DNA of 64,000 nucleotides from Deltaproteobacteria bacterium (GTDB taxonomy: Bacteria > Myxococcota_A > UBA796 > GCA-2862545), in assembly GCA_006226595.1 (NCBI GenBank), contig SBGP01000043.1, forward strand, positions 1 to 64,000, read 5' to 3'. Under the pieces are notes generated by a model. It did not search any database. It saw nothing but the letters and a program-made list of their open reading frames with translations, and was not told the origin of the DNA. The position numbers were made by a program, and so were the translations under genes. Positions 37,744 to 63,309 of the stretch are shown here, piece after piece (within the stretch, counting starts at the first letter, position 1; each line of letters opens with the position of its first letter).

Positions 37744-37819
<76 letters not shown>

Positions 37820-37826
37820 CCCTCAC

Positions 37827-37901
37827 GACCCCATCGTCTAGTCAGGTCCAGGACACCGGGTTTTCATCCCGGCAACACGGGTTCGAATCCCGTTGGGGTC
37901 A
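37827..37901 (+). tRNA. tRNA-Glu (anticodon TTC)
   Basis: The acceptor arm is GACCCCA with TGGGGTC. The anticodon loop TTTTCAT gives UUC, and the T arm contains GGTTCGAATCC. No CCA is encoded. Accessory DNA begins directly after this gene, so its 3' end is a candidate integration site. Confidence 0.95.
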
Positions 37902-37930
37902 CTCTCTCCGCGAAAGCGCAGAAATACTAG

Positions 37931-40617: not shown

Positions 40618-40622
40618 CTCGC

Positions 40623-45514: not shown

Positions 45515-48500
45515 CGGTTGGCACTCCTCCGGTGGCGCTTTCGCTCGTGCAGGGGCGTTTGGCCTGCGAGGGCCTCGAGTTCGGCCGTACGGCAGTCACA
45601 GAAGTACGGGTGGTTGCCGACCACCACGAGCTGCTGCCGCGCGCGGGTCACGCCGACGTTCAGGCGGTTCGGGCTGTCGAGGAAGCCGACGCGGCGTGTG
45701 TTCCGCATCGACAGCATGACGAGGTCCGCCTCGCGACCCTGGAAGCGGTCCACCGTGCCGCATACGACCTCGACCGGGGCGTTGCGAACGATGAATCTCG
45801 TCTTTCGGTCATCCTGGGTGACCTCGCGCAGCATGTCCGAGATGGCGCGTTCCTGCTTCGAGTAGAAGCAGAGGCACGCAACCTCCCAGACCTTCGGACG
45901 ATCCCGGTCGGGGGGCCCCTTCTTCCGCGCCCAGGCGATGAAATCGCGCAGCAGACCGGCCATGACCCCAATCTCGTCCTGGTTGATCCCCCCTTGCTCC
46001 CGGCCTTCGACGTGGACCCACACACGCCGGGCAGGGAACTCGCCCCAGTCCCAGCCGAGCTTTGCGTCTCGGAGCTGGATGGTGTTCGCGTCGCTCAGCG
46101 CATGGCCGTCGTAGACGACCTTGCGGGGAAACGAGGCGATGTCCGGATGCATGCGGTGCTGGAAGCTCAGGCTCTCGAACCGCGCAGCGAAATCCCGTGG
46201 GCAGCTGCCCCTCAGGCCCGCGGTCAGCGCGCTGCGCCGCTTCGCTCGATCTACGCCGATACCTTCCTGGAGTACCTCTAGGATGCTGGGAAGCCCGATG
46301 TCCTCGATCTCGGCAACGGGCTCTTCGATGCTCGACGCCAGCGGCTGGAGATAGCCCAGGTCCTTTCGGAGTCGCTCGCGCTCTCGTCCGTTCCGACTGT
46401 GTCGCAGCTCGTGGAGGCGCGTCAGCCGCCAGGCGAGTTCCTGGGCCAGGTCGCGGCGCAGCAGCCAGTCCACCTCGCATGCTTGAGCGTCAGCGAAGGA
46501 CGTGACCGGTTCCCGACGGAACTGTCGTTCCTGGTAGGAGCGCGGGAGTTGTCCGACGCGTTGGAGCCACCACGCCTGCCTGGTGAGCAACACATCGCCC
46601 TCTGCGAGGGGCCCCCCCGTTCCGGCGACGTCTTCCGCGAGGAGCAGATTGGACGGCAGCCACTGCGAGACTTCCCGAATGAGGTCATCCCCCACGAGTA
46701 CCCAGTCCGCCGCCGCGAGCTTCAGAGCGGACGCGTGGCCCTCGCGAAGCTCAGTGACGGTGACGGAGTCCACTGGGCCGACGGAGCCGCCTCGCTTGGC
46801 GACGACCCGCACGACATGCGGCTCCTGCGTTCCTCGGGCCACCAGCTCCTTGGCGATCCATCCGAGCACACCCGGTCGTTCGACGAGAAGCCAGCGCATG
46901 CCGGGCTGGCGCAGTCGCCCTAAGGTCAACCGGAAGAGGAGCAGACATGCACGCTGATGGTCTGCGGGAAAGACCGGTTGGTCCTGCTCGTCCACCAGGT
47001 CGCGGAGGTTTGCCACGATGTCGGCTCGGTCTGCGAAGGGCGGCAGCTGTCGCACGTCACCCACCACCATCCACCGCTTCGCCATGAGCGCGGGGACCAT
47101 GAACTCCTGGATGAGCGTCTTGCTGGCTTCGTCCACGATGAGGACGTCCCAGTGAGGCATCGTGGTGATCGGACGCTCCCAGACCTTCAGGTCCTCGTCT
47201 CGCCCGCGGAACAGGGGGTGGTTGACGATGCCCATCGTCGTTCCGCAGGTCAGGTTGGCCGCCATGATGACGGCCCGTTCGGCCATCTCGTACAGCTCGG
47301 CGTCGCCATAGCCCCGCATCGCTGGTTGCCGCTGCCAGGCGGAGACCAGGGCCTCTACGCGCTCGTCGAGCTGCGTGGTCTGGACCTTGTCGTCGACCTT
47401 GTCGAGCTTGCCGATGCGAACCGCATGGATGGGAGACGAGGACTCGAGCAGTCGCTCCAGCACGTTGTCGATGGCGACATGCGTGGAGGCGCAGAGCAGA
47501 ACTCGCTGGCCCTGCTCTACGAGTTGCTGGACGATCTCACAGATGGCGGTCGTCTTGCCCGAGCCCGGAGGCCCCTCGAGAAACGCGAAGTCGGGGCTGC
47601 CGAGCGCCTTCTGCACGAAGGTGCGCTGCTCGTCGGTGCCATTGCGACTGACATCCGTCAAGGCTCGCCACTCGCCTTCGGGCACGTCGACGGGGGTGAC
47701 CCTCGGCCAGCGCGCATGTTGGGGATCCTCACACAGCCGCAGCAGTCCCTGATGGTGGGGTAGGGGAGCCTCGGAGAGCTGCCTCAGGGCCCGCTGCTGC
47801 AGGTACAGATTCCTCACGTCAACCGGGAGGTAGAGTGTCGTGTCCGCTGGCGGATAGCGGTCGAGCAGCAGTTGGTATCGGTCGGGATCGACCTTGCGCA
47901 CCTTGTAGGTGCTGTCCTGGCGGTGGCGCGCTTGCGTCCAGATTTCCCGCACGTCGCCTTCGCAGAACGCGGCCCTAGGGTCGAGGAACTCCTCCGCCTC
48001 GGAGGACTCCGGCGGGAGTAGTTGGACCCAGCACCCGCGGCGCCCGCCGGAACCCAACTCATGCCAGCGGAACCGCACGCCGTTGTCTCCCCTCAGCGAC
48101 CCATCGGCCGGTGGCTCTTCGACTCGGAGCATTCCGCCGCTCACCTCGAACGAGGTGCCCTTGGCGTCCACCGCACGCCGGAGGCCCTCGAATGCTGGCA
48201 GCGCTTCCGCCTCGACCTCGTCGCCGTCCACGAGGAGGTCGCAGTCACCTACCTGGCCCTCGACGACGAGCAGCCAGTGACGCTCGTCGTCGGTGACTCT
48301 CGGCGGTGAGCGGAGGGACAGTGCGTGTCCATGAAGGTCCACGACCTGACTGGGCGGCGGGGGGGCTGCCTCGAGCTCCACCGAGCACTCCTTCAGGCAC
48401 CAGAGCACTCGGTCGCCCGGGAGCAGCGGGACATTCGTGCGCACTCGGAGCCCGGTGGCGGTCGGGGTGGCGCTCTCGAAACGGACGGGGACACCCCGGT

Positions 48501-48798
48501 TCATGACGAAGCCCATCTGGCCCAGATCGGGGTGTGTTCCAGATGGCCAGCCCGTCAGTACGACGCCGGGTGGGGGACGTGGAACCCGCAGAAGACTGTC
48601 GACAGCTTCGAGTCGGATGGTGACGAGGTTCCGTACTCGCTCCCAGGGAAGCTGGTAGCGGGTCTGGCGCTGCTTGGCCGTGTGGATGGCCTGCCCGAGG
48701 AATCGGTTGAAGGGGCGGAGAACGTTCCCGGCCTGACTCATCAGCGGTGGTGCCACCTTCGGGTGCCCTGCAGCTGCGTGGAAGAACAGGACCTTCAC
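45511..48798 (-). CDS. UPF1/DNA2-like superfamily 1 helicase
   Basis: The 1,095-residue helicase has an N-terminal region of about 380 residues without a recognised domain, then SF1 motifs. These are GPPGSGKTT (Walker A, about residue 408), DVLIVDEASK (motif II), GDVRQLPPFA (motif III), QHRMHPDIA (motif IV, about 879), VDRFQGREADLVMLSMRN (about 1019) and NVGVTRARQQLVVVG (motif VI). This is the NAM7/DNA2/UPF1 class, acting on DNA or RNA. It starts at GTG 48798, overlapping the AAA+ stop as GTGA. The large N-terminus could hold a nuclease or binding module. Confidence 0.88.
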   Translation of the reverse strand: MKVLFFHAAAGHPKVAPPLMSQAGNVLRPFNRFLGQAIHTAKQRQTRYQLPWERVRNLVTIRLEAVDSLLRVPRPPPGVVLTGWPSGTHPDLGQMGFVMNRGVPVRFESATPTATGLRVRTNVPLLPGDRVLWCLKECSVELEAAPPPPSQVVDLHGHALSLRSPPRVTDDERHWLLVVEGQVGDCDLLVDGDEVEAEALPAFEGLRRAVDAKGTSFEVSGGMLRVEEPPADGSLRGDNGVRFRWHELGSGGRRGCWVQLLPPESSEAEEFLDPRAAFCEGDVREIWTQARHRQDSTYKVRKVDPDRYQLLLDRYPPADTTLYLPVDVRNLYLQQRALRQLSEAPLPHHQGLLRLCEDPQHARWPRVTPVDVPEGEWRALTDVSRNGTDEQRTFVQKALGSPDFAFLEGPPGSGKTTAICEIVQQLVEQGQRVLLCASTHVAIDNVLERLLESSSPIHAVRIGKLDKVDDKVQTTQLDERVEALVSAWQRQPAMRGYGDAELYEMAERAVIMAANLTCGTTMGIVNHPLFRGRDEDLKVWERPITTMPHWDVLIVDEASKTLIQEFMVPALMAKRWMVVGDVRQLPPFADRADIVANLRDLVDEQDQPVFPADHQRACLLLFRLTLGRLRQPGMRWLLVERPGVLGWIAKELVARGTQEPHVVRVVAKRGGSVGPVDSVTVTELREGHASALKLAAADWVLVGDDLIREVSQWLPSNLLLAEDVAGTGGPLAEGDVLLTRQAWWLQRVGQLPRSYQERQFRREPVTSFADAQACEVDWLLRRDLAQELAWRLTRLHELRHSRNGRERERLRKDLGYLQPLASSIEEPVAEIEDIGLPSILEVLQEGIGVDRAKRRSALTAGLRGSCPRDFAARFESLSFQHRMHPDIASFPRKVVYDGHALSDANTIQLRDAKLGWDWGEFPARRVWVHVEGREQGGINQDEIGVMAGLLRDFIAWARKKGPPDRDRPKVWEVACLCFYSKQERAISDMLREVTQDDRKTRFIVRNAPVEVVCGTVDRFQGREADLVMLSMRNTRRVGFLDSPNRLNVGVTRARQQLVVVGNHPYFCDCRTAELEALAGQTPLHERKRHRRSANR

Positions 48799-50375
48799 GA
48801 GCGGGACCCCGGAATGAAGGGGTTCCGCGTTGCTTCCTGGCGGAGCCGAGGTGCCGCAGCTTCCGGGTTGTCGGCAGGTAGGACCTCGGGTGGTTCGCCG
48901 GCTGCGAGCCGGGCGCGGACCTTCGCCCAATGCCGCAGGCTGTCGATCTGGTCGCGCATGGTCCGTGAGAGGGGGAACGTCTTGTCGAGCGCTCGTGCGA
49001 TGTGATCGGAGCTCAGCTCAAGGCCCTCGGCGAAGGCGTCGTACATGCCTTCGCGGACCGCTTCCTCCAGCTCGGCGCCCGAGAATCCCACGGAGCGCTC
49101 GGCCAGATCGGCGAGCGCGAAGTCCTTCGGGTCCCGACGCTTCCTCTCCAAGTGGATGGCGAGGATTTCCTCGCGCACCGCGCGCGTCGGCAGGTCCACG
49201 AAGAAGATCTCATCGAAGCGCCCCTTACGGAGCAGCTCCGGCGGGAGCATGTCGATGCGGTTGGCGGTGGCGACGACAAAGACGGGGGCCGTCTTCTCCT
49301 GCATCCACGTGAGCAGCGTACCGACCACACGTGCGGTAGTGCCTCCATCCGTCTGATCCGAGCTGCCCATACCCGCGAGGCCCTTCTCGATCTCGTCGAT
49401 CCAGAGCACGCATGGGGCCAGAGCCTGGGCTACCTGGAGGGCCGTTCGGATGTTCCCCTCGGACTGGCCGACGATGCCGCCGAACACCTTGCCCATGTCG
49501 AAGCGAAGCAGGGGGAACTGCCAGGTGGCGGCCACGGCCTTCGCGAGCAGGCTCTTTCCGCAGCCTTGTACGCCCAGCAACAGGACGCCCTTGGGAGCGT
49601 CCAGGCCGAAGTCGCGGGCGCCCGCTCCGAATGCTCGGCCGCGGCGGTCGAGCCACTCCTTGAGCTGGTCGAGTCCCCCAACGTCCGTCATGCGCGCATC
49701 AGTGGGGTAGTACTCCAACACCTCGCTCTGCTTGATGATGCGTTCCTTCTCCCGCGCGACCAGCGGTACGGATGCGTGATCCAGCCGTTCGAGCTCCGCG
49801 GCAGCCTTGCCGAAGGCCAAGCGCGCTTCCATCACCGTCAGACCTCGCGCGGCGTCCAGGAGCGCCTCGTCCGCGGAGGCCCGGACTCCCATGGCCGCGG
49901 CGGCGTCTTCGAGAACGACCCGCAGCTCGTCCACGCCGGGGAGATCTAACTCGACAGTCGGGATCTCCTTACGTAGGTCCAGGGGCAGGACGGGGAGAGG
50001 CGTAGAGAGGACCACTATCTTTCGCGGGGATGCCGGAAGCCGCGCGAGTTCCCGGAGCCAGCGGAGGATAGGGTGGTGCTCTTCCCGGAGGAACGGCTGG
50101 AAGTCCTCCAAGAGCCAGATGCCGGGCTCATCACCGCCATGGATGTGCTGGAGCAACTCCATTGGGTCGGTGGCGGCGTCGTCCTCGATTCGGAGGTCGC
50201 CATGCTCGTTGCAGGCGAGCAGCCCGGTGGACTGGCTCCAGACGTGGAGCGGGAGGTCCAGTTTGTTGGACAGGCCGATGGCCAGGCCGCGAACCCGCTC
50301 CCATTCGTAGGACGAGATGTGTAGCAGCGGCGCGCCGGCCTTGGACAGGTACAACAAGTGTTCGTAGGTGCTCAT
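48795..50375 (-). CDS. Ycf46-like AAA+ ATPase
   Basis: The 526-residue protein starts at ATG 50375 behind GAGG. The N-terminal 235 residues are the inactive ATPase-like domain seen in Ycf46 proteins (SYEWERVRGLAIGLSNKL, IWLLEDFQPFL). The AAA+ module follows with GVLLLGVQGCGKSLLAKAVA (about 260-280), CVLWIDEIEKGLAGM (about 325), FVVATANRIDMLPPELLRKGRFDEIFF and the FSGAELEEAVREG sensor-2 helix. All catalytic residues are present. Ycf46 is known from plastids and cyanobacteria, where DUF1257 (Ycf35) also occurs. It heads the leftward operon and is its likely motor. Confidence 0.88.
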   Translation of the reverse strand: MSTYEHLLYLSKAGAPLLHISSYEWERVRGLAIGLSNKLDLPLHVWSQSTGLLACNEHGDLRIEDDAATDPMELLQHIHGGDEPGIWLLEDFQPFLREEHHPILRWLRELARLPASPRKIVVLSTPLPVLPLDLRKEIPTVELDLPGVDELRVVLEDAAAAMGVRASADEALLDAARGLTVMEARLAFGKAAAELERLDHASVPLVAREKERIIKQSEVLEYYPTDARMTDVGGLDQLKEWLDRRGRAFGAGARDFGLDAPKGVLLLGVQGCGKSLLAKAVAATWQFPLLRFDMGKVFGGIVGQSEGNIRTALQVAQALAPCVLWIDEIEKGLAGMGSSDQTDGGTTARVVGTLLTWMQEKTAPVFVVATANRIDMLPPELLRKGRFDEIFFVDLPTRAVREEILAIHLERKRRDPKDFALADLAERSVGFSGAELEEAVREGMYDAFAEGLELSSDHIARALDKTFPLSRTMRDQIDSLRHWAKVRARLAAGEPPEVLPADNPEAAAPRLRQEATRNPFIPGSRS

Positions 50376-50563
50376 GGAACCTCGGCTGACAACGCAGATG
50401 CCGACTCGAGTTGAGGCTGGGCCGGCGCTGTGGCAGCGTACGACACGACGGGCGAGGACGGAAGTCAGGTCCGCCTGTAGACGCGGGCGTACCGGTCGGT
50501 CGCACAAATCGAGTTCCACATGAGTCCGCGCCAGAGGTGCTTTGGCGGCGCTCGGGGGTAGGA
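50376..50563. promoter_or_regulatory. Divergent promoter spacer between the two accessory operons
   Basis: These 188 bases lie between the AAA+ gene and the first rightward small gene and must contain both operon promoters, unless one reads through from elsewhere. No clean -35/-10 pair is seen on either strand; TTGAGG near 50413 is a weak candidate. The leftward start has GAGG five bases upstream, the rightward one GGGGTAGGA. Confidence 0.45.
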
Positions 50564-50887
50564 ATGAGTTTCAAGAACTGGACACGACTCGGGTACACGA
50601 TTGACGGCTACCGGGCTCGGCACGGCTCATTCCCGACGATCGTGCTGGCGGATGCCCACATGCACGCGTCGGTCGTCCAAGCGCTGTCCAGCATTCAGCT
50701 TCGTCGACTCAATGCGCTTTGCCCCGTGGTCGCCTGCCGTCACCTCTCCGATGGCGTCGTGCTGATGGCGCTGGGTGCGGAAGGTGAGCAGCACCTGTAC
50801 GGAGAGGACACTGTCGCGCTTCCGGAGGGCAGTGCGACCGTGTTCCAGCTCGTTGGGCTGGGAGAGTCTGACCAGTCTGGCGAGTGA
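50564..50887 (+). CDS. Small unknown protein at the head of the rightward operon
   Basis: The 107-residue protein starts at ATG 50564 behind GGGGTAGGA. It opens FKNWTRLGYTIDGYRARHG and is mixed alpha/beta, with LADAHMHASVVQALSSI and GVVLMALGAEGEQHLYG, and ends in a short acidic tail. No domain is recognised. It is separated from the next gene by 292 bases, so it may have its own terminator or promoter. It could be a regulator of the cluster. Confidence 0.55.
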   Translation: MSFKNWTRLGYTIDGYRARHGSFPTIVLADAHMHASVVQALSSIQLRRLNALCPVVACRHLSDGVVLMALGAEGEQHLYGEDTVALPEGSATVFQLVGLGESDQSGE

Positions 50888-51179
50888 AGGGCGAAGTTCC
50901 CGGAGGCCGCTCTCCCCCAGCTTCCGGAGCCCCCCATGTTTCCGACTGGCACCAGCTTGGACGGGGTCGTCAGCAGGGTCGCCGTTCTCACCGCCCACGT
51001 AGACCGCGTCGAGGTCCAGGTCTGCACGATCGAGCTTTTCGAACGGAATGGTATTGTCCTTCACGGTAGCCCGACTCCTGGTTGCGGACGGAATTTGGCT
51101 GTGCCCCGTGCGAAGGTACCTGTCGATGGCGGTGCCGGGGTACTCCTGGACCGCTCTAAGACTCGGAACGGGGGAATCG
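50888..51179. other. Gene-poor 292-base gap
   Basis: Frames here are short and unconvincing, and no clear terminator stem with a T-run is seen. Its less GC-rich stretch (about 51030-51070, around GGTATTGTCC) is the best place for a promoter for the downstream genes. Confidence 0.4.
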
Positions 51180-51554
51180 ATGGAGCTGAAGGCCTTCCGA
51201 CAGGCGTTGTGGGATTTGGGACTGCGACGCTGCGGGTTGAATGCGGACTGGTCCGTCGAGGCGTGGCACCTGGGGCAGGGCAAACCAAACGTGCGTGGCG
51301 GCGACGTGTACGTGCTGGACGATGAGATGGACGACGGAAGCTGGGGGATCGTGCAGCGGTGGCATGTCGACGATGACTACTCTCCGCTTACGCAGCAGCA
51401 GCAGCTGGAACTTGGCGTGGACGGATTGAACGACCACATCGAGGAGATCCTGGTGATCCAACCGGACGGCGCAGGGCTGGAGGCGATCCGTCGTATCTCG
51501 AGCGCCTTGGTAGCGGACCACGGGGTCCTCCTCGAGCTCGGATTCGTCCGGTGA
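51180..51554 (+). CDS. Small acidic protein of unknown function
   Basis: The 124-residue protein is read from ATG 51180, five bases after GGGGGA; an upstream start at 51048 in the same frame has no ribosome site. It is acidic (VLDDEMDDGSWG, VDDDYSPLTQQQ) and mixed alpha/beta. The low pI resembles immunity or DNA-mimic proteins, but there is no specific match. It lies 58 nt upstream of the methyltransferase gene. Confidence 0.6.
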   Translation: MELKAFRQALWDLGLRRCGLNADWSVEAWHLGQGKPNVRGGDVYVLDDEMDDGSWGIVQRWHVDDDYSPLTQQQQLELGVDGLNDHIEEILVIQPDGAGLEAIRRISSALVADHGVLLELGFVR

Positions 51555-51612
51555 GGTCGGTGCCAGTTCTCGGAAGCGAGATATCGGACGTCGTCACCCG
51601 ACCGGAGTCCCC

Positions 51613-52920
51613 GTGGAAGTAGCCGCCCAACCGCACCTCCCGTTCGAACCGAGGCCCGAAACGAGTTCACGGAATGTGGTCTCGCTATTCGCCGGCATCG
51701 GCGGACTGGAGCTTGGACTGCATCGGTCCGGGCTCTACCACACGGAGGTCGCGTGGGAATTGATGCCGGAGGCCCGCGCTTGCATCTCGCAGCACTTCGG
51801 CCTGAAGGAAGGAAGCGACGCTCTGGCTGATGTGACGGACTCTTCCTTCGCAGGGCGCCTTCCCGAGCGCATCAGCCTCCTGACTGCTGGGTTCCCTTGC
51901 CAGGACTTGAGCCAAGCGGGCAAGACGGCAGGTATCAGCGGGGCTCGCTCGGGGCTGATTCTCCATGTGCTGGACACACTGGCCGCGCGCCCCGCCGCAA
52001 ACCGCCCGGACTGGCTTCTCCTCGAGAACGTGGCCTTCATGCGTCACATCGGCGGGGGAGAGGCGATGAGGATCGTGCTCTCCAGGTTGACCGAGCTGGG
52101 CTATGCGTGGGCGTATCGCCAGCTGGACACACAGTCGTTCGGGCTGCCGCAACGCCGCAAGCGAATCTACTTCGTGGCGTGCAAGTTTGGGCACGGAGAC
52201 CCGCGAGCTGTGCTGCTTTCCGACGATGCAAAGCGTCCGACGGTACCGTCCGGCCCTGGTTGGAAGAACGGCGTGGCTTGTGGCTTCTACTGGACCGAGG
52301 GAAATCGTGGGGTGGGGTGGGGGTACGACTGCGTTCCCGCTCTGAAGGGGGGATCGACTGTCCAGATTCCTTCGCCGCCGGCCATCCTGCATCCGACCGA
52401 AGGGCTGGTCACTCCCACGATCGAGGACGCAGAGGCCCTGCAGGGCTTCGACCGCGGATGGACTCGGCCAGCGATCGGTCAAGGGGACGACCGGAACGGA
52501 CGTATGCGGTGGTACCTGGTGGGCAACGCCGTGTCGGTACCGGTCTCCCAATGGGTTGGGGCGCGTTTGGCCAAGCCCGTCACATACCCGGAGGCCCGCA
52601 TCGGGCGCGCCCGTCCCATCGAAGGAGACCGATGGCCGACGGCGGCTTGGCGTGTCGAGCCCGATGTGGCCGCGGTCGCGAGCCCAGAGTGCGACTGGCC
52701 GTTGGACGTCCAGACACGGGACGCACTTGGCCTTCCAACGCGCTCGCTGACGGAACTCCTGGCCGAGGGAACCAGCAGCCGGCCTATGCTTTCGAGACGA
52801 GCAACCGCGGGATTCCTGACCCGTTTCGAGCGGAGCAGCCTACTCGCGAAAACGGACACCGAGCTGCGCGAGGCGCTAATCGAGGCTCTCGAGGGACGAC
52901 TCGCGATGGATTCCGAGTAG
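51613..52920 (+). CDS. DNA cytosine-5 methyltransferase
   Basis: The 435-residue enzyme shows the ordered 5mC methylase motifs: I (SLFAGIGGLELGL), IV with the catalytic cysteine (GFPCQDLSQAG), VI (LLLENV), VIII (QRRKRIYF) and X (GNAVSVPVSQW). The target-recognition region between VIII and X is about 120 residues. It transfers a methyl group from S-adenosylmethionine to cytosine C5. The C-terminal 90 residues beyond motif X are unusual and may contact the other system proteins. The start is GTG 51613. A Vsr gene for T:G repair is at the far end of the operon. Confidence 0.92.
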   Translation: MEVAAQPHLPFEPRPETSSRNVVSLFAGIGGLELGLHRSGLYHTEVAWELMPEARACISQHFGLKEGSDALADVTDSSFAGRLPERISLLTAGFPCQDLSQAGKTAGISGARSGLILHVLDTLAARPAANRPDWLLLENVAFMRHIGGGEAMRIVLSRLTELGYAWAYRQLDTQSFGLPQRRKRIYFVACKFGHGDPRAVLLSDDAKRPTVPSGPGWKNGVACGFYWTEGNRGVGWGYDCVPALKGGSTVQIPSPPAILHPTEGLVTPTIEDAEALQGFDRGWTRPAIGQGDDRNGRMRWYLVGNAVSVPVSQWVGARLAKPVTYPEARIGRARPIEGDRWPTAAWRVEPDVAAVASPECDWPLDVQTRDALGLPTRSLTELLAEGTSSRPMLSRRATAGFLTRFERSSLLAKTDTELREALIEALEGRLAMDSE

Positions 52921-52966
52921 TCCTCCGTCCGTGGTAGGTTTCCAGCCCACGTGAGAGAGGGCTGGC

Positions 52967-55555
52967 TTGACGTTCGCAGAACTACTCCGCTCCCATCTTG
53001 TCGCCATCGACCTGTCTTCAAAGAGCGCGTCGAAGTTCCGGGACTTGACCGAGGCAGTCGAGGCCTTTCTTGGTGTCGAAGGCTTGGTGATCAAGGCCCT
53101 GGCGGCTCCGAAGAACTTCGGCAATCGAATCTCGGAAGCCACGGCGGATGGTCGTGCGCTGATCGTCGTCGCCGAAGGCGATGTCGACCTCGATGCCCTC
53201 GAACGTGCCTATGTGGGACGGGCGCTCAATCATGTGCCGATGTTGCTCGTTTCGGCCGCTACGGGAGACGATTGGCATCCCAGGGCCGTTTGGACTGCGG
53301 GTGAACAGAACCCGTTTCCGGCTGACATCCCCACGTTCGTGCTGGACCTACAGGTGGACGGACCACGACTGGATGGAGAGGGCGTCCAGGCGGTCGTCGA
53401 GGCCGTACGACGCTGTGACGGAAGCGATTGGGATGCGGGTGTGGCGTCACTGCTTCAACTCGCCGAAGGGTCCAGCGGGCTTGCCGCAAAGTTCGTTGGC
53501 GATGCGAAGAACGCACACAACCGGGTCCGGGAGGCCATGGGGAGGCGCCCAGGTGTCTTCGTGGCCATCGGCGACCACGCATTGAAGGAACAGCTTTCGA
53601 GATCGGTGGAAGCCAACAAGGAGCTCACCGGATGGGGATTCTTGGCCCTTCAGCGGGAAGGCCGGCTGGAGCTGATCGAGGTGTCCGCCCCAACGGAGGA
53701 GGAGATTCAGATGCAGGGCAGCGATGAGCTCGATGAATACGAGCCCGGCGGCAGCGACGACGCCGTCGAGGAACTCCAGTATCAGGTGAACGCCACCGTA
53801 GCGGACCTGACTCGCTACCTGCCGTTCGATGCCACTGCTGGGAACCTATATGAAGAACACATCAGCTCGAGTCAGAGGCTGGAGTTCGACACCTCCGCAC
53901 TTGGGTTCATCCACGCGCTGGTGAAGGACCCCGAGGTGTCGATGGTCGTACTGACCGGCAACGCCGGTCACGGCAAGACGCACCTGTGTCGTCGGCTTCT
54001 AAGCGAGGCAGGGCTCAAGCCTCGCGAGGCGATGGCGGCGATGAGTGGGGACCTCCGAGGCGAGTCCCCAATCGAGCTTCCCGGGCTCCCCCGGCGGATT
54101 CGCATCCTGAAGGACCTCTCCGAGATCGAGCCCGTGGCGTCTGCGGCGGAGAGGCTGGTCGAGCTGCTCGAGGACACCGACACACTGGCCATCGTGTGCG
54201 CGAACGAGGGGCGTCTGCGTGCGGCGGTATCGGTGAATCCGGGTCGGCTCGGCCTCCTGGTGCGCACGCTGGAAGCAGGCATCCGTGACGGGGCGACCTG
54301 CATCGAACCGACGGTGCACGTGGTGAACCTGAACTTCCAGGCGGTCGCACCTACGAGAGGTGAGGCGTTCCTCGACTTCGCCCTCGACCACTGGGTCGGC
54401 CACAAGAATCGATGGAAGAAGTGCGAGAGCTGTCTCGCCGGGCCAGACTGTCCCATCTTGGCCAATCGCACGGCACTGTCGCTGAGCCCCGAGACGAGGC
54501 AGGCGGCGCGGCCGGTGCGCGACTCGCTCACGCACCTCGTACGGCTGGCCGAGCAGACCGGCTACGTCCTGACCATTCGAGAGGCGCTGATCTTGGTAGC
54601 CTTTCTCGTTACCGGCGGCCTCGACTGCCCGGCAGTACATGGGCGTCATCGCCTTGGCGACCTCGATGGGTTTGGCTACCTGGACTCGCTGTTCGAACGG
54701 CAGCTGCCGGATACGGATATGTCCCAGCTCGGTGTGCTCGAGCGCATCCGGCGCTTCGATCCTGGCCGCGTGGCAATGCGCTCTGTGGACGAACGGCTCC
54801 ACGAGGAACTGGAGCGGTCGGGGGCGTTTGGGTCGGAGGTCTTGGAAGTCGGGGCACGACCGCCGAGTACAAGAGATCAGCTACGTCGTGAGCAGATGAC
54901 GCACTTGGACTCCCTAAGGCGCGCGCGTCGAAGGGATTTCTTCACGCACGTGCCGGAGGAGCTTGGCCGTTCGACGAGGCTCGGCCTGCGCTTCCATGAC
55001 GACTTCCTTGCCCTCCAGAGCCACTCGCTCGACGACGCGAAGATGTTGGCTATCCTGGAGCGCCTGGTCGCGGGCCTGCATGTCGTTCAAGGCGTGCGCA
55101 CGTCCAGCCAGTCCGCGGGTTTGCTGTACCTCGTCGACCCGGCCTTTTCGCGTAGTTCAAATCGCTCCGCCGTGATTGCCCATCAATTCGACCAGACCAA
55201 CCTCGAACTGGTTGGCGAGGCACAGTTCTGGACGGAGACGGACGGAGAACCGCAGCTGCTCGAAGCCGTGGATTGGCTGGATCGACGAGTCGTGTTGGCG
55301 CACCGCGAGCAGCTCGGCTCTCCCCCGGCCCCCATTCTCGATTTCGACCTCCTCCAGTTCGAGTTCGTCATGAGATCGGCTGCTGGAGTCGTGTTCAACG
55401 AATTCAATGCGGCGGAGCGGAAGCGCATCGTAAGCCGGCTCGCGCGGATTGCGGAGGAGCGGAAGAGCCCACGCGACATCAAGGTGATGGAGGGGGGCCG
55501 ACTGCGGCGCCTGATCCTAGAGCGGGACAACAGTTTCAGGGTGGCGAGCACGTGA
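52967..55555 (+). CDS. P-loop ATPase with cysteine motif (DptF-like)
   Basis: The 862-residue protein starts at TTG 52967 after GAGAGAGG. Residues 1-300 are unassigned and alpha/beta. Walker A GNAGHGKTHL is near residue 330, followed by TLAIVCANEGR, which could be Walker B and sensor 1. Around residue 485, KCESCLAGPDCPILANR has a Cys pattern (C-x2-C-x5-C) like that I recall from DptF, the ATPase of phosphorothioation-dependent restriction. The rest is helical. Its order before the next two genes also copies dptF-dptG-dptH. The DptF relation is inferred; no dnd modification gene is in the window. Confidence 0.6.
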   Translation: MTFAELLRSHLVAIDLSSKSASKFRDLTEAVEAFLGVEGLVIKALAAPKNFGNRISEATADGRALIVVAEGDVDLDALERAYVGRALNHVPMLLVSAATGDDWHPRAVWTAGEQNPFPADIPTFVLDLQVDGPRLDGEGVQAVVEAVRRCDGSDWDAGVASLLQLAEGSSGLAAKFVGDAKNAHNRVREAMGRRPGVFVAIGDHALKEQLSRSVEANKELTGWGFLALQREGRLELIEVSAPTEEEIQMQGSDELDEYEPGGSDDAVEELQYQVNATVADLTRYLPFDATAGNLYEEHISSSQRLEFDTSALGFIHALVKDPEVSMVVLTGNAGHGKTHLCRRLLSEAGLKPREAMAAMSGDLRGESPIELPGLPRRIRILKDLSEIEPVASAAERLVELLEDTDTLAIVCANEGRLRAAVSVNPGRLGLLVRTLEAGIRDGATCIEPTVHVVNLNFQAVAPTRGEAFLDFALDHWVGHKNRWKKCESCLAGPDCPILANRTALSLSPETRQAARPVRDSLTHLVRLAEQTGYVLTIREALILVAFLVTGGLDCPAVHGRHRLGDLDGFGYLDSLFERQLPDTDMSQLGVLERIRRFDPGRVAMRSVDERLHEELERSGAFGSEVLEVGARPPSTRDQLRREQMTHLDSLRRARRRDFFTHVPEELGRSTRLGLRFHDDFLALQSHSLDDAKMLAILERLVAGLHVVQGVRTSSQSAGLLYLVDPAFSRSSNRSAVIAHQFDQTNLELVGEAQFWTETDGEPQLLEAVDWLDRRVVLAHREQLGSPPAPILDFDLLQFEFVMRSAAGVVFNEFNAAERKRIVSRLARIAEERKSPRDIKVMEGGRLRRLILERDNSFRVAST

Positions 55556-56937
55556 TCAGTCGACGGGAGCAAGGAAAACGGACGGTTCAACACACCTTCG
55601 GTGGGGTGCTCTCACAGCAAGGCAGAGGCTTCTACACTGCGCTGGAGCTGTTCGCGATCTTGCGGGGAGAACACCTGCTCGAGAAAGCAGAGGGAGAGCT
55701 CGGGCTCGACTCGACCGCGCCGCGTCTTCTGCCGACCAGTGATGAGTGCCTCTACCTACGGCCCAGTCATGACTTCGCTCGACGGCTGATGGCGGGGGAT
55801 CCACGCGTGAGTGGACACGAGAAGCTGAAGGGCCCTGCGACCGAGCGCACGCTTCGTGCCCTGCTACGCGGGTTGGAGAACCCTATCCCTGGGGCGAGGC
55901 AGGCTCCGAAGAACTGGAGCTCTCGACACTTCTTCCCGTTCCCTGGAGAGCTGGCTCACTACGACGCCGTTTATCGCGGACGAGGCGCAAGTCGGAAGGT
56001 TTCCACCGAGACCTACATCTTCAGAGGAGGGGGCGGGCTCGCGCACAAGATCTTGCGGACGGACCCTGATGCGGACCGCCTCGCTCGGACACGTGATGGG
56101 TTTCGGCGCCTGGTGTCGGACTCCGGTAGCACCGTGGGTCGCATCGCGTCGGCACTATCGAACCTTGATGATTCCAAGGCCTATGACTGGTCCGACCCGT
56201 CGGAGGAGGCCCTGAAGACGGCGAGTTTCCGCGACCAGGTGGAGGAGCGAAGCTGGGCGGATGCAGACCGGCAGGAAACACGCTGGTTCGAGTTGCTGCG
56301 GGATGGCGTGAGCCGGGTTCTACGACGGAAGGAGCTAACGGAGTTCCATCGTGTCGAAGTGCTGATGCATCTCGTTCCTTTCTGCCTGAGCATGCATCAG
56401 CTCGCCATGGCTTGGCGTGCCCTGGGGCGCGATGAGAACGGATCGCTGGTGCTTGACGCGGGTCACGGGCCAGGTGCCGTGCGCGAGCTTGCTCGGCAGC
56501 ATCTCAACCAGTGCTCCGGCGCCATTACTGCGGCGCTCATGCATCGCGCCGGTGAGATGGGCTACGAAGAGCTAGGCACGGGGCGGACAGCTTGGCGGGA
56601 CGGGCCGCGAACGTTCTTCACCGCGACGATGTACGCCGTTGGTGCAGTGAACGCGCCAACCGGACGGCGCTTCCTGGCGGTGAGGCCGGCGCTGCTCGAG
56701 ACGCTGGTCGCCGCGTTCGTCGACGGTCACATTCCGTTCTCGACCTTCACCCGGGACATCCTGTGTGGGCGCCTCGGGCTGGTCACCGACTACCCGTCCG
56801 CCCAGGCGGCCGGAGGCTTCGACCTCGACAGGGCCGATCTGGATGAAAACCGCCGTCACCTGGGAACCAGGTTGGCGGGACTCGGACTCCTTCAGGAGTA
56901 CTCGGACGCGACCAAGATGGTGGGGATTGTGCAATGA
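55552..56937 (+). CDS. Unknown helical protein (DptG-like position)
   Basis: The 461-residue protein starts at GTG 55552, overlapping the ATPase stop as GTGA, and its own stop overlaps the next ATG (ATGA). It is mostly helical. Near the end, PALLETLVAAFVDGHIPFSTFTRDILCGRLGLV followed by LGLLQEYSDATKMVGIV resembles the C-terminal style of DptG-type proteins that sit between DptF and DptH. Sequence support is weak, so the assignment rests on gene order and size. Confidence 0.5.
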   Translation: MISRREQGKRTVQHTFGGVLSQQGRGFYTALELFAILRGEHLLEKAEGELGLDSTAPRLLPTSDECLYLRPSHDFARRLMAGDPRVSGHEKLKGPATERTLRALLRGLENPIPGARQAPKNWSSRHFFPFPGELAHYDAVYRGRGASRKVSTETYIFRGGGGLAHKILRTDPDADRLARTRDGFRRLVSDSGSTVGRIASALSNLDDSKAYDWSDPSEEALKTASFRDQVEERSWADADRQETRWFELLRDGVSRVLRRKELTEFHRVEVLMHLVPFCLSMHQLAMAWRALGRDENGSLVLDAGHGPGAVRELARQHLNQCSGAITAALMHRAGEMGYEELGTGRTAWRDGPRTFFTATMYAVGAVNAPTGRRFLAVRPALLETLVAAFVDGHIPFSTFTRDILCGRLGLVTDYPSAQAAGGFDLDRADLDENRRHLGTRLAGLGLLQEYSDATKMVGIVQ

Positions 56938-59900
56938 ACTCGACTGAAGCCATTGCTGGCGTCGCTGCGGCACGCGTTCGGGACCTCTTCGCCGAGGGGT
57001 CCGCGGGGGCCATGCTTCGAGTGCGTGGCCTCGACAAAGAGGAGATCACAGCTCTCGTCGAGAAGTTGGAGGGGTGGAGTCCTACGGCCGGTGGATCTCT
57101 GCTGCAAATCGTCGTTACGACCACGCAGGCCTGGCCCGGGCTGCCTTCGAAGTGCGTCTTGCCACCGGACGCCAGCTCTACGACCTTCCGCAACTCTTCC
57201 GACCCCGTACTCTTCGTGGAGTACGAAGAGTACAGCGACGCCCAGGGACTCCGGAACGTGCGAGCGATCACCGACCGTGAGCTCATCTCGGAGTCGGCGG
57301 GCCGACGACGTCTGACATCGGGACTCCGCGGTGGACTCGGCGAGTCGAGCATCCTGGACCAAGCGCTCGAGCGCGTGTTTCGGGCGTTCCGTCAGGCGGG
57401 GAATCGCGCGACGCCGCCCATGCGTCGCTGGACGGCACTGGTGGCGGAGGTCTGCCGCGTCCTTGCCTCCGCTCGGGCGTTGGATTCTCAGTCTGTTTGG
57501 ACAGCCGTCGGCGATGGCCTCTGGGCTGGCGGGCTCTTTCCGGACACGCGGCTACCTGCGGCGAACGAAACCGAGCGCGACCGTTGGTTGCGCAGAAACG
57601 TCGACCAGGTCGCCCGGCTCACCGCCAACAGCCGTGGTCGGGATCTGGATGAACTGTACGAGAAGGTCCAGTCCGTCCAGTTCACCGAACTCGACGGCAG
57701 TGAGACCCCGGAGGCGCGTGCGAGCGAACTGCGGCGTGAGTTCTCCGAGATCATCCGAGCGGACCGACGGCATACCTTCGAGAAGGTGGAGCTTCGATAC
57801 TGGGAGCAGGTAGAGGCACGTCAGACGGATCGCAAGGGACTTGGCGATCGTGTCCGCGAGCAGATTGCCGCAGCGGACCCGGACCGGGAATTCGAGCTCC
57901 CGGAAGAGCTGATCGATGGGTTGAATGCGGGCGATGCCGAGTCGGCAGTCGAGTTTCTGGATCTCGAGCCGGCGGAGGGACAGACGCAGCGGTTGTCCAT
58001 GCTTCTCGATCCGAAGCTGCGCGGGCGACTGGAGAAGGTGGCGGATCCGCCGCAACGCGCCACGAGAGCTCCGCTGCGCAAGCTACTGGCGGAGTTGTAC
58101 TCGGTCGTGTCGGATGAGGACGAGGAGCTAGGCGGGCTACTGCTCGAGCGGCGTCAACGAAAGACGGATGACGACCTCTCCGCGGCGCTGTTTGCTTGGG
58201 TCTACGGCCCGACACTCAGGCGGGTTTCGGAGGCGACTGCGGACCGCGCCGTGTCCCTTCTGGTCAACGACGAGCTCCTAGACACCTCGGCGCTCGCCAA
58301 GTTCATCGAGCAGGCGGAGTCGGGGAAGGTGGCGGACTCTCTGGAGCCAAACTGGGCCGACCTACGGCTGCAGGTCCGTTTGGAGGGCAAGAAGTCGCCG
58401 CTGGTCTCCTTCGAATGGCGACCCCGAGAGATTCCAGGATTGCTTGCCCTCGCTCGGCAGGTCTGGCGCGCGGACGCGGCCGTTTGGAGTGGGCCGGAGG
58501 AGTCCAACTATGACGACTGGGTCCGCTCGGCTTTCGAGGCCGCTCCGCTCCGTGATGGAACACAGGCGGGGTCAGATGGCTTGAAGGCCTGGGCCGACAT
58601 TCGGACGGACCACTTGCTGGCACTGCGGAGTGGCTTGGACGGCAGTGCGATGCTCCACTACGCCTCGCGGTTCGAGTCGGAGCTTGGGCGCGTGCGCGAG
58701 GAACACGTTCCTCAAGGTGTGCGGGACGAGGTGGTGGGTGAGCTGCTGCGACTGGACACCTTTCGATCCGACGATGGCAGCGAAGTGGTCATGCTGGCGA
58801 CCCATCCGATTCGACAGCGATGGGTGGGAACCCACTTCGCCGAGATGGAGCGGCTGCTGCGGGACTGCCTCGAGGGCAGCCTTCGCCTAAACCCCATCAA
58901 TGACGGCGCACTCTTCTTCGACCACATCGAGAAGGTGAGTCCCCACGCTCAGCCTCCAGTGCTGGTCAACGGCGACGAGCAGCTTCTCGCGGTTCGCGAA
59001 CAGGATTGGGCAGAGCACTTCGAGGTGCTCCAGGATCAGAAGGCGTCCCGGAAGGAGTGGCTGGCTGGCCTTGACGACGGAGCGATCGACGAGGTTGCAG
59101 ACGTCGTGGCCCGGTATGTCGCTGCGTATCCGCACAAGGTGGACGGCCTTCATCTCCTGTTCATCGTGAGGAGGCGTGGGGCGCGCAGCCTCGAGCGGTT
59201 GGTCGCTCGTGTCCGGAAGCTCTTGAAGAAGTCGCTTGGCGAGGACGCGACCATCAGGCTCTCCCTGGTTGTCGAGCCGCTTGAGGTGCGGGAGGTCGAG
59301 CGCGTGCTTCAGCAGTTCGACTCCTCCGACAAGCGAAACAGCTCCGACTTCCCGGAACTCGATGTTCGGCTTCATGAATGGGACGTCGAGACCCACACGT
59401 CTCCGCCACTGGACGAGATTTCCAGCGAAGTGGACATCGTCGTGGTGCCGAACTTGTTTGGCGCCGAGACAGTGACGCGAGAGGCCACCGTCAGTTCGTC
59501 GGGGATCCGTACCCAGTTCTCACCTTGGCTCGACGAGCCGACGCGAATCGAGTCCGCGGACAGCAAGAGCGCAACCTCCGTGAGCCGAATCCTGCTTCCT
59601 TCGGGTGGTGACGTGCTGCTCGAGGCGTGGTCCACCATCAACACCCGTCAGTTCCGGCGGCGACCGGTTGGTAGCGACCCGACGCCAGATGACGTGGACT
59701 ACTTCGAGCTCCAGGTGCCCTTCGGGGAGAGTGCTGGGTTCTTCAAGGAGCTGCACAAGCTGGCCCACTGGGTTGTCACCGTGGACGCCTTCGTGGGCCG
59801 CGAACAGGTGGACGGGCTGAAGGACGGACCGGACGTGATCCTGGTCAAGACGGGCGTAGGCAGCAACGATGGCTACCGGATGGTCGTGAGTTCCGAATCG

Positions 59901-62708
59901 GGCCGCGATTTCATCGTCCGACGGCTGCAGCGACGCCTCCACGACCAAATGCCCGACGATGGCACGTTCGACTTCGGCCAGGTCGCGCACCAGCTCTACG
60001 AGCGAGCGCGCTATCTGGTGCCTGGAATCGTGCTCAGGTCGCTGGGACTCGGGCGCACGGCGGCCGAGATGGTGGGGCTGGTATGTGCAAGGGCTCGGGT
60101 GGCCGAGAAGCACCCCGTGGATCTTCAGGGGCACGGCTTCGAGGCCTGGATCAGCCTCGACGAACACGCCGAGTGGCTCGGGGGCGTACGACGCTCGCGC
60201 GCTGACATGGCTCGGTTCGTCGGGCGATGGACCGGGAAGACCTTGGAGCTGGAAGTGCTCGTCGTCGAAGCGAAGATGAGGCGATCGGTGGACCTCTCTC
60301 GGGCCGACGAGCAGATCCAGCGGTCCGTACAGCTTCTCGACGCGGCACTGTCCAGCGAGGACAGCGACGAAGCATTCAAGGACGTGGCGTTCTGGCGGCG
60401 GGAGGTCCTTCGGGCGATCGAGCAAGCAAGCGTGGCACCGGAGGACCTTCGAGCCGCGTGTCGTATCCACGTCGATGGAGAGGTTCGAGGCGCGCTGGAT
60501 GATGCGCATCGAGCTTCGATTCTCTCAGGTCGGTTCGAGCTACGCTCCGTCGAAGGCGTTCTGGTGACCCTCGCCGACCATGGGCACGTCGACGACCAAC
60601 GGACTCCCGCAGGCTTCGAGTGGCTCCGTTTGAACACGCGTGAGCTATCGCATCTTCTCGCCCGGCTGACCCGCGAGAACGAGTGGACGGATGTGCCCAC
60701 GCAACGTCCTGCACCTGCGCCGACGGAGACGCCAGAGCCGACCGGACAGCGAACGAGCCCGACTACGGCACCCGCCGAATCCGACCAGGCGCTGAAGCCT
60801 TCAAATCGGGGAGGGGAGACTCCCAGAGCCTTGCAGCGGTACCAACGGGTTCTGGATGTGCTGAGCGAGCACAGGGTCGGGGTCGTCGCGCTGCCGGACG
60901 AGCCAGCGGTGGAGGGGCCTGGTTTCTATGTCTTCCGGGTTGGCCTGGAGAGTGGCCAACGACCGGCGTCGGTCTACAAACTCGGCGAGGAGCTGAAGTA
61001 CGGGCTTGGGCTGGACGCCGGTCATGAACCACGCTCCTTTGCCGACCGCGGTGCTGTGGTCATCGAGGTCCCGAAGCGTAGCGACGAACGCTACTACGTG
61101 GACGCGGCGCAGCTCTGGGCCATTACTGAGTGGCCAGAAGGGAGGCTGTACGCGCCCCTGGGAGCTGACGTGCGGGACGAAGTCGTAGGAATCGAGTTCT
61201 CGTCGTCCCGGTCGCCTCATCTCTTGATCGGTGGCATGACCGGCGGCGGAAAGTCCGTCGCTCTGGAGACACTCCTTTGGGGCCTCGCCCAGCACTACCC
61301 CCCAGAGGAGCTCGAGCTTTGGCTCGTCGATCCTAAGGGCAACGAATTCGTGCAGTTCGAGCAACTCCCCCACGTCCGCCAGCCCATCGGAATGGATGCG
61401 GACGATGCCATCGAGATGCTCGAAGAGGCCGTCGAGGAGATGGACCGCAGGTACCGGCTCATGAAGGACGCCAGCCGAGCGAGGCGGAGCCGCGTGGCCG
61501 ACCTCGCCGGCTACAACCAATTGGTCGGGAAGGGAGAACGGTTCGCTTGGATTGTCGTTGTCCTGGACGAGTTCGCTGATCTGACGGCGGAGAAGGAGTC
61601 GCGAAAGACGATCGAGCTGCTGCTTCAGCGCCTTGCCCAGAAGGCACGAGCGTGCGGCATCCACTGCGTGGTCGCGACCCAGAAGCCCTCCGCCGAGGTG
61701 ATCAGCACGACCACGCGTTCGAACCTTGGTGCGCAGCTAGCGCTGCGGGTGCGGAGTGCCGTCGACAGTCGAGTGATCATGGAGACCACTGGTGCCGAGA
61801 GCCTCGCTGGAAACGGAGACGGCTTCCTGCGACTGTCTGGAGAGGAGCCCATTCGTCTCCAATGCGCGAAGGTCTCGGACGAGTCCCGTGAAGCGGCGCA
61901 GGCGCGCTGGGGGGGGGAGCCAAGTCTCCCCGAGGACTCCCCGGATGTGGATGAACCGTTGCCTTCCAGACTGGTCCTCTACGAGCGCTACGAAGTGATC
62001 GCGGAGATCTCTGGTGGCGCCATGGCCCAAGCGTACAAGGTGCGGGACAAGGAGTCCGGGGACGATGTCTTCCTCAAGCGTGCGGTGTTGGACGGCTCGT
62101 TCAACGGCGACGCCATGATGCGGGAGGCGAACATCTACCAGAAGCTCCAGCGCGCCTACGCGAGCGGGGTCATGGACGTCAGGGACGTTCAGTCGGACGG
62201 CAACAGCATGGCGATCATCACGGATTTCGCCGATGGTGGGACGCTAGAGGCACACGTTCGTCGGCAGGAACGAGGCTTCTTGACCGGAACGGAAACCAAG
62301 CAGATCGCGCTCGAAATCCTGGAGGGGCTGCGCAGCCTCCATGGCGTGGAGGTCATCCATCGAGACCTGAAGCCCGCCAATATCTTGAGGCATCAGCAGA
62401 GCTGGAAGCTTGCCGACTTCGGCATCGCCAAGAACCTCCGGCGCCTGATGACGCAGCGGACCTTCCAGCAGGCTGGCACGAAGGGCTACGCGCCCCCAGA
62501 GCAGTACCAAGGTGCCGAGGCGCACGCGTCCGCAGACATCTATAGCTTTGGGAAGCTGATCACCTTCATGCTCACCGGTGGCACCGACGTAGACACGATT
62601 CCGTCCGATGTCTGGGGAAGGCTCGTTCGCCGTTGCACGGAGAGGGACCCTTGGGAGCGGGCCGACCTCGAGGAGGTTGAGAAGGAGCTGAAGAGACTGC
62701 CCATCTAG
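56934..62708 (+). CDS. FtsK/HerA-type DNA motor fused to a Ser/Thr kinase (DptH-like)
   Basis: The 1,924-residue protein begins at the ATG overlapping the upstream stop. Residues 1-1,400 have no recognised domain. An FtsK/HerA-type ATPase follows, with IGGMTGGGKSVAL near 1,433, WLVDPKGNEF, WIVVVLDEFADL near 1,540 and VVATQKP. From about 1,680 to the end is a complete protein kinase with EISGGAMAQAY, VFLK, HRDLKPANIL near 1,809, ADFG and GTKGYAPPEQ. Both parts keep their catalytic residues. The fusion suggests that DNA translocation or restriction by the complex is controlled by phosphorylation. DptH itself, as I know it, has no kinase. Confidence 0.8.
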   Translation: MNSTEAIAGVAAARVRDLFAEGSAGAMLRVRGLDKEEITALVEKLEGWSPTAGGSLLQIVVTTTQAWPGLPSKCVLPPDASSTTFRNSSDPVLFVEYEEYSDAQGLRNVRAITDRELISESAGRRRLTSGLRGGLGESSILDQALERVFRAFRQAGNRATPPMRRWTALVAEVCRVLASARALDSQSVWTAVGDGLWAGGLFPDTRLPAANETERDRWLRRNVDQVARLTANSRGRDLDELYEKVQSVQFTELDGSETPEARASELRREFSEIIRADRRHTFEKVELRYWEQVEARQTDRKGLGDRVREQIAAADPDREFELPEELIDGLNAGDAESAVEFLDLEPAEGQTQRLSMLLDPKLRGRLEKVADPPQRATRAPLRKLLAELYSVVSDEDEELGGLLLERRQRKTDDDLSAALFAWVYGPTLRRVSEATADRAVSLLVNDELLDTSALAKFIEQAESGKVADSLEPNWADLRLQVRLEGKKSPLVSFEWRPREIPGLLALARQVWRADAAVWSGPEESNYDDWVRSAFEAAPLRDGTQAGSDGLKAWADIRTDHLLALRSGLDGSAMLHYASRFESELGRVREEHVPQGVRDEVVGELLRLDTFRSDDGSEVVMLATHPIRQRWVGTHFAEMERLLRDCLEGSLRLNPINDGALFFDHIEKVSPHAQPPVLVNGDEQLLAVREQDWAEHFEVLQDQKASRKEWLAGLDDGAIDEVADVVARYVAAYPHKVDGLHLLFIVRRRGARSLERLVARVRKLLKKSLGEDATIRLSLVVEPLEVREVERVLQQFDSSDKRNSSDFPELDVRLHEWDVETHTSPPLDEISSEVDIVVVPNLFGAETVTREATVSSSGIRTQFSPWLDEPTRIESADSKSATSVSRILLPSGGDVLLEAWSTINTRQFRRRPVGSDPTPDDVDYFELQVPFGESAGFFKELHKLAHWVVTVDAFVGREQVDGLKDGPDVILVKTGVGSNDGYRMVVSSESGRDFIVRRLQRRLHDQMPDDGTFDFGQVAHQLYERARYLVPGIVLRSLGLGRTAAEMVGLVCARARVAEKHPVDLQGHGFEAWISLDEHAEWLGGVRRSRADMARFVGRWTGKTLELEVLVVEAKMRRSVDLSRADEQIQRSVQLLDAALSSEDSDEAFKDVAFWRREVLRAIEQASVAPEDLRAACRIHVDGEVRGALDDAHRASILSGRFELRSVEGVLVTLADHGHVDDQRTPAGFEWLRLNTRELSHLLARLTRENEWTDVPTQRPAPAPTETPEPTGQRTSPTTAPAESDQALKPSNRGGETPRALQRYQRVLDVLSEHRVGVVALPDEPAVEGPGFYVFRVGLESGQRPASVYKLGEELKYGLGLDAGHEPRSFADRGAVVIEVPKRSDERYYVDAAQLWAITEWPEGRLYAPLGADVRDEVVGIEFSSSRSPHLLIGGMTGGGKSVALETLLWGLAQHYPPEELELWLVDPKGNEFVQFEQLPHVRQPIGMDADDAIEMLEEAVEEMDRRYRLMKDASRARRSRVADLAGYNQLVGKGERFAWIVVVLDEFADLTAEKESRKTIELLLQRLAQKARACGIHCVVATQKPSAEVISTTTRSNLGAQLALRVRSAVDSRVIMETTGAESLAGNGDGFLRLSGEEPIRLQCAKVSDESREAAQARWGGEPSLPEDSPDVDEPLPSRLVLYERYEVIAEISGGAMAQAYKVRDKESGDDVFLKRAVLDGSFNGDAMMREANIYQKLQRAYASGVMDVRDVQSDGNSMAIITDFADGGTLEAHVRRQERGFLTGTETKQIALEILEGLRSLHGVEVIHRDLKPANILRHQQSWKLADFGIAKNLRRLMTQRTFQQAGTKGYAPPEQYQGAEAHASADIYSFGKLITFMLTGGTDVDTIPSDVWGRLVRRCTERDPWERADLEEVEKELKRLPI

Positions 62709-62748
62709 TCAGCGCTGCGGGCGTGCTGCCTCCAGTAGAGGAGTTCAG

Positions 62749-63309
62749 ATGGCGGGCATGAGCCGGTCAGAACAGATGGCGCGGGTGCGGGGGCGTGACA
62801 CGAAGCCCGAGGTCCGCCTCCGGAAGGCGCTTTGGGCGGAGGGACTCCGATATCGGATCGGCACGAGGGTGGAGGGGGTTCGGCCTGACCTCGCGTTCAT
62901 CGGGCCTCGGGTGTGCGTGTTCGTGGACGGGTGCTTCTGGCATGGATGCCCGCATCATTATGTGCGGCCGCGTACAAGGGAGGCGTTTTGGGCGGGGAAG
63001 CTGCGGGCCAACAACGAGCGAGATCGCGAGCAGACCAGACGCCTGGAGTCCAGGGGCTGGAGGGTGGTGCGCATCTGGGAGCATGAGGTCGAGCAAGACC
63101 TCGAGGGTGTGGTCGCACTCGTTCGGGCGCAGCTTGACGGCCAAGCTACAGTCGTCAGACAGTGGCGGGTGGTGCAGGTCATACCGCTTGACGACGGGTC
63201 ACGGCACGAGCGTCGGCTGATGGAGCTGTTGAGGTCGCCGGCTGAAGGCTTCGCGTATGACGGGCCACGCAACTCGCGGACGAGGATGCTGCCCTTGGAG
63301 CTCACATGA
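62749..63309 (+). CDS. vsr: Very short patch repair endonuclease Vsr
   Basis: The 186-residue protein matches Vsr: MSRSEQMARVRGRDTKPEVRLRKAL, RPDLAFIGPRVCVFVDGCFWHGCPHH with the catalytic acidic residue and zinc ligands, and RRLESRGWRVVRIWEHEV. Vsr nicks T:G mismatches left by deamination of 5-methylcytosine, and so protects sites methylated by the enzyme earlier in the operon. It is about 40 residues longer than typical Vsr at the C-terminus. It starts at ATG 62749 behind AGAGGAG, 40 nt after the kinase fusion. Confidence 0.92.
   Translation: MAGMSRSEQMARVRGRDTKPEVRLRKALWAEGLRYRIGTRVEGVRPDLAFIGPRVCVFVDGCFWHGCPHHYVRPRTREAFWAGKLRANNERDREQTRRLESRGWRVVRIWEHEVEQDLEGVVALVRAQLDGQATVVRQWRVVQVIPLDDGSRHERRLMELLRSPAEGFAYDGPRNSRTRMLPLELT

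Follow-up and report, generated by a model that had tools for sequence, protein, structure and literature searches.

Several described systems come close to the locus analysed here. In SspABCD-SspFGH, the SspFGH module damages host DNA and impairs growth when the mark is missing and suppresses T4 DNA replication when it is present (PMC8092258). DndFGH (dptFGH) is a three-gene restriction module which Rakesh et al. argue to be stand-alone, without a built-in modification module; its DndH subunit combines a dead methyltransferase-like domain, a restriction endonuclease (REase) domain and a HerA/FtsK motor (PMC10853773). MADS, the methylation-associated defence system (Maestri et al. 2024, as cited in PMC12904381), is classed as methylation-guarded, and its methylase is taken to provide the self mark; a 2026 review lists its restriction mechanism as unknown (PMC12904381).

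The window, the whole stretch of 64,000 nucleotides analysed here, contains an operon of five plus-strand genes at 51613-63309 in the order C5-cytosine methyltransferase – F – G – H – Vsr (Table 1). Overlaps of 4 bp join F to G and G to H. As the five genes recur in two other bacteria (see below), the operon looks like a genuine and so far undescribed form of a known type of antiviral system. A preliminary description of this DNA had claimed a five-gene rightward operon, overlapping junctions within its central trio, an ATPase with a Cys motif, a DNA motor fused to a kinase, and a link of the trio to a 5-methylcytosine (5mC) methyltransferase and to a Vsr gene at the operon end. All of these are present, and the five genes lie where that description placed them. 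The extent it gave, 50564-63309, takes in at its left edge two small ORFs without a match in Pfam or PADLOC, for which the relatives of the operon showed no counterpart. Membership of the two ORFs in the system is not supported.

Table 1. Positions in the window of the operon genes, of the domains and motif within H, and of the upstream ORFs
Feature	Position	Strand	Evidence or remark
Two small ORFs, unknown nature	50564..51554 (50564-50887, 51183-51554)	+	Upstream of the methyltransferase
C5-cytosine DNA methyltransferase, 435 aa	51613..52920	+	Pfam DNA_methylase 3e-37; predicted self mark
F: SspF-type P-loop ATPase, 862 aa, Cys motif	52967..55555	+	PADLOC SspF 1.4e-38
G: SspG-type subunit, 461 aa, GTG start	55552..56937	+	PADLOC SspG 1.2e-18
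H: SspH-type giant subunit, C-terminal kinase	56934..62708	+	PADLOC SspH 6.6e-95
H aa 688-989, methyltransferase-like Rossmann domain	58995..59900	+	Model m8a7cf3270fad
H D1091...E1112-x-K1114, predicted PD-(D/E)xK nuclease motif	60204..60275	+	Motif conservation
H aa 1398-1586, FtsK/SpoIIIE motor domain	61125..61691	+	PF01580 (FtsK_SpoIIIE) 7e-40
H aa 1686-1884, Ser/Thr kinase domain	61989..62585	+	PF00069 (Pkinase) 1e-33
Vsr-type very-short-patch repair endonuclease, 186 aa	62749..63309	+	TIGR00632 2e-36

The G+C content of the window is about 0.70 over most of its length and about 0.64 over 50-64 kb. A further cluster lies leftward of the operon on the minus strand (39730-50519), near tRNA-Lys and tRNA-Glu genes (37744-37902). 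Besides ATP-grasp (R2K) and radical-SAM frames, it contains two unknown proteins of 685 and 556 aa, an SF1 helicase of 1139 aa that resembles IGHMBP2/MkoA, and a CDC48/IetA-like AAA+ ATPase of 574 aa. The frames of the two unknowns, the helicase and the AAA+ ATPase touch or overlap; these four genes may be another uncharacterised defence-like cassette.

F carries the Walker A motif GNAGHGKT and the Cys motif CESCLAGPDCPI, and aligns with SspF over 526 columns in profile-profile comparison (hhalign, 99.95%, E 1e-37). A fold search with the F model (m5f3f05a947a7) returns generic AAA+/ORC-type P-loop ATPases for the core (aa 270-596), with a best Z of 9.8; no DptF structure is listed among the matches. 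The first 269 residues (52967-53773) are modelled at low confidence. They have a homologue in none of the other F proteins found and match only KaiC, weakly. Codon-position G+C is 0.72/0.43/0.71 in this segment and 0.70/0.44/0.78 in the rest of F, and by this measure the segment looks coding overall; it may be an N-terminal domain that varies, like the one reported for DndF. G has no match in a Pfam search. Its PADLOC SspG match covers the C-terminal part of the protein, and 397 columns align with SspG in hhalign (99.3%, E 3e-20).

H is a single uninterrupted frame of 1924 aa and aligns with SspH over 1570 columns (hhalign, 100%, E 2.6e-74). The modelled fragment spans aa 575-1260 (mean pLDDT 77), and the Rossmann methyltransferase-like domain in this predicted model scores a VIA-align Z of about 14. 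The [NDS]PP[YFW] motif is absent from it; going by motif and model, the domain is degenerate (dead), as for DndH (PMC10853773). Since the fold search covered the methyltransferase-like domain only, the REase assignment rests on conservation of the D...E-x-K motif. The columns of this motif are invariant in ten sequences, for E and K including a MADS protein, and the motif is kept in 18 of the 19 members of a second set; the remaining one comes from a truncated frame. The motor domain matches solved FtsK structures. The methyltransferase has no type II restriction endonuclease gene beside it in the operon, where the H motif and Vsr are the only nucleases among the genes.

The kinase motifs of H are intact (HRDLKPAN, DFG and PPE). 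Fusion of a kinase to H is seen in the window only. Three relatives described below (L098 in genome G359, L013 and L012) have an H protein without a kinase, so the fusion does not characterise the 5mC lineage. Kinases accompany the FGH core in other ways too. For the fusion, seen in a single window, this makes a role in control likelier than chance but does not establish it; the repeated linkage of Ser/Thr kinases to the core suggests that phosphorylation controls it. Separate protein kinase genes are found just 3' of H on a Pseudanabaena plasmid (L005, 15816-16697, after a DUF262 gene) and in a Gracilibacteria locus (L082, 9981-10664).

The C5-methyltransferase has intact FAGIGG, GFPCQ, ENV, QRRKR and GNAV motifs. 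Pairing of such an enzyme with a Vsr gene is shared with Dcm/Vsr type pairs. Unlike those, the pair encloses an FGH module in the window and in G359. In four other genomes of the phylum (L115-L118) such a pair, with a methyltransferase of the window's subfamily, occurs without FGH. Methyltransferase and Vsr are therefore an autonomous module. In the window an ordinary module of this kind appears, by sequence comparison, to have been joined to FGH.

Conservation of the genes in other genomes had been set beforehand as a test of the proposal, and it is observed in two genomes, in the same order in one and as the same set in the other. The former, G359, was found by screening the window's phylum with a G profile; this 10.75-Mb genome from another family has exactly the order methyltransferase-F-G-H-Vsr, and its F/G, G/H and H/Vsr junctions each overlap by 4 bp. 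A Sandaracinus MAG (L039) falls in the family of G359, which suggests that the phylum is Myxococcota. Its methyltransferase is 48% identical to that of the window and occupies the same operon position. The latter, Desulforhopalus singaporensis DSM 12130 (L013), has F-G-H-Vsr-C5-methyltransferase in one operon. Its Vsr, like that of G359, aligns with the window Vsr; its methyltransferase (24% against the window enzyme) belongs to another subfamily, and the 5mC link has thus either survived exchange of the marking enzyme or arisen again after it. The five genes occur together in at least three genomes of two phyla, in complete loci with two methyltransferase subfamilies and two gene orders. Given the identical order in a second genome and the presence of the set in a third, the five-gene set is not due to chance.

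A Planctomycetota MAG (L012) contains the closest F among the matches listed. The contig ends just upstream of F; there is no Vsr downstream of F-G-H, and a methyltransferase of this kind was not found in the MAG assembly. The F-G-H genes are followed at 9826-10648 by a small HTH (excisionase-like) frame and an integrase-like frame, both read by eye, which suggests that they lie on a mobile element. The F, G and H proteins of the window, G359, L013 and L012 form one clade (SH-aLRT 99, 100 and 100, respectively), which stands apart from the phosphorothioate-linked Ssp sequences; the tree program warned of long branches, and the three proteins agree nonetheless.

A scan of GTDB genome contigs with the F sequence alone gave no relatives, while a scan with an F alignment gave at least 80. 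The alignment scan used one short peptide pattern, which would miss the F of G359 (GDAGHGK); rarity is therefore overstated and more loci may exist. No relative turned up in the viral contigs and phages searched. The plasmid FGH loci inspected are phosphorothioate-linked or MADS; for G of L098 and of L013, a search of plasmids gave no match.

F, G and H of the window are homologous along their length to those of SspABCD-SspFGH (PMC8092258) and have the same order; H shares the nuclease motif and the FtsK part. The comparison set consists of plasmid trios, nearly all of them next to phosphorothioation genes. In contrast to that system, the marking module in the window is a C5-methyltransferase with Vsr, H carries a kinase, and F, G and H fall in a separate clade. 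DUF4007 (SspB) was not found in the window genome (G000), G359 or the Desulforhopalus genome (G238); the same search gave 5.7e-72 in the phosphorothioate-linked control genome G345. DndC was not found in the first three genomes either, a result that speaks for Dnd alone, since the DndC model also gave nothing in the control genome, which has an SspD. Absence of phosphorothioation therefore rests mainly on SspB, and without this companion gene the operon is not classed as an Ssp system but as one with an SspFGH-type module. Besides the window, 91 loci with F were examined. Homologues of sspB or sspD lie nearby in 63 of these, an N6-methyltransferase in 15 and a C5-methyltransferase with Vsr in two; the remaining 11, several of them short or cut, have none of these.

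The trio had been called DptFGH-like. Its homology to a phosphorothioate-type restriction module is upheld, as is the three-gene arrangement shared with DndABCDE-DndFGH, and H has the domain plan described for DndH, the REase by motif only. By model matches, the closest described trio is SspFGH and not DptFGH. DptF and DptG were rejected as nearest relatives since no Dpt or Dnd model matched and the SspF, SspG and SspH models did. No Dnd/Dpt model of NCBIfam matches F, G or H of the window at E <= 0.1; in PADLOC, such models match neither F nor G, and none appears for H among 25 of its 42 matches. Lack of these matches and of DndC separates the window from the Dnd/Dpt systems.

The preliminary description also knew of no named system with this composition. 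No description of FGH with a C5-methyltransferase and Vsr was found in the literature searched; FGH with base methylation does have a precedent in MADS, which has 6mA and kinases. As a whole, that interpretation is partly supported. Proteins of the plasmid locus L007 are called mad2 to mad8 by PADLOC, and other loci with an N6-methyltransferase were assigned to the MADS type by similarity to L007 (MADS-type loci: L007, L059, L061, L062, L066, L067, L071, L073, L083, L086 and L088-L091). The L007 MAD6-type protein consists of a NERD domain, two kinase domains and then an F part (hhalign with F, 99.65%, E 5e-25). MAD7 of this locus matches the SspG model and the NCBIfam MAD7 model recognises an SspG; against the 5mC-type G, only 86 C-terminal columns align (hhalign, 94.5%). 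The MADS H protein (MAD8) aligns with H over 591 columns including the nuclease motif (hhalign, 98.7%), and that of L007 matches PADLOC DndH. By these profile comparisons F is homologous to the C-terminus of MAD6, G to MAD7 and H to MAD8, a kinship of which no statement was found in the literature searched. The homology suggests a nuclease for MADS.

The window operon therefore has, like MADS, base methylation as its predicted mark, an FGH-type core and a fused Ser/Thr kinase. The two differ in several respects. MADS has an N6-adenine methyltransferase, an HsdS-like specificity subunit and MAD3/MAD4; neither the mad2 N6-methyltransferase nor the mad5 specificity subunit is in the window operon, which has a C5-methyltransferase instead and no HsdS-like gene. 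The MADS kinases are fused to F together with a NERD domain, whereas the window kinase is on H. The FtsK/HerA part of MADS H did not align with H of the window lineage, and MADS F proteins form a distinct clade.

We consider it likely that the operon is a restriction-modification system with 5mC as its self mark and the SspFGH-type complex as its restriction machine. The C5-methyltransferase, whose motifs are intact, would methylate a target sequence in host DNA, and Vsr, by its family, would repair the T:G mismatches that arise when 5mC is deaminated. By analogy with SspFGH and DndFGH, and from the conserved motifs, F, G and H would form a complex. G and the dead methyltransferase-like part of H may read the DNA for an unmethylated site, F would bind nucleotide and gate the complex, and the FtsK domain of H would move along the DNA. 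The predicted D...E-x-K nuclease of H would then nick or cut unmarked DNA. The least certain step is that of the H kinase, which probably turns the response on or off by phosphorylating either one of the subunits or a target in the cell.

The methyltransferase-Vsr pair and a stand-alone FGH might instead share an operon without functional coupling. As has been proposed for DndFGH, FGH would then sense other cues (nucleotides, or intermediates of replication or transfer), and the methyltransferase would serve otherwise, for example by shielding against a different restriction enzyme. Such independence is consistent with the methyltransferase-Vsr pairs of the same subfamily that exist without FGH, with the stand-alone view of Rakesh et al. 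(PMC10853773) and with L012, where FGH of the same clade occurs in a MAG in which the methyltransferase was not found. We regard it as unlikely, however, in view of the recurrence of the five genes across two phyla (three genomes), in different orders and with methyltransferases of different subfamilies, the location of FGH between methyltransferase and Vsr in the window and G359, and the toxicity of unguarded SspFGH in E. coli (PMC8092258).

It is quite improbable that the kinase is the effector, with FGH sensing unmarked or moving invader DNA and triggering abortive infection with little or no cutting. The kinase motifs of H are intact, and kinases accompany FGH cores in MADS, L005 and L082; yet L098, L013 and L012 lack the kinase and keep the nuclease motif, which rules the kinase out as effector of the whole lineage. 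We give very little credence to a type IV-like system, in which FGH would attack DNA with hypermodified cytosine, or with 5mC outside its proper context, while methyltransferase and Vsr had a regulatory or immunity role. This would be compatible with Vsr and 5mC biology; against it, unmarked DNA is what the homologous SspFGH attacks (PMC8092258), and the MADS methylase is regarded as a self mark (PMC12904381).

Under the restriction-modification reading, FGH appears to be paired with three marks: phosphorothioate in Ssp, 6mA in MADS and 5mC in the window lineage. It is possible, and we propose it tentatively, that FGH is a mark-agnostic engine which has come to use phosphorothioate, 6mA or 5mC through exchange of partners, and that the motor-fused kinase of the window adds control by phosphorylation. 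The 5mC lineage, with its two methyltransferase subfamilies, and the homology of MAD6, MAD7 and MAD8 together suggest one engine and three chemically different marks. How FGH reads the mark, and whether MADS restricts with the same nuclease, can now be tested; the finding also bears on the published view that DndFGH-type modules have no built-in modification module (PMC10853773).
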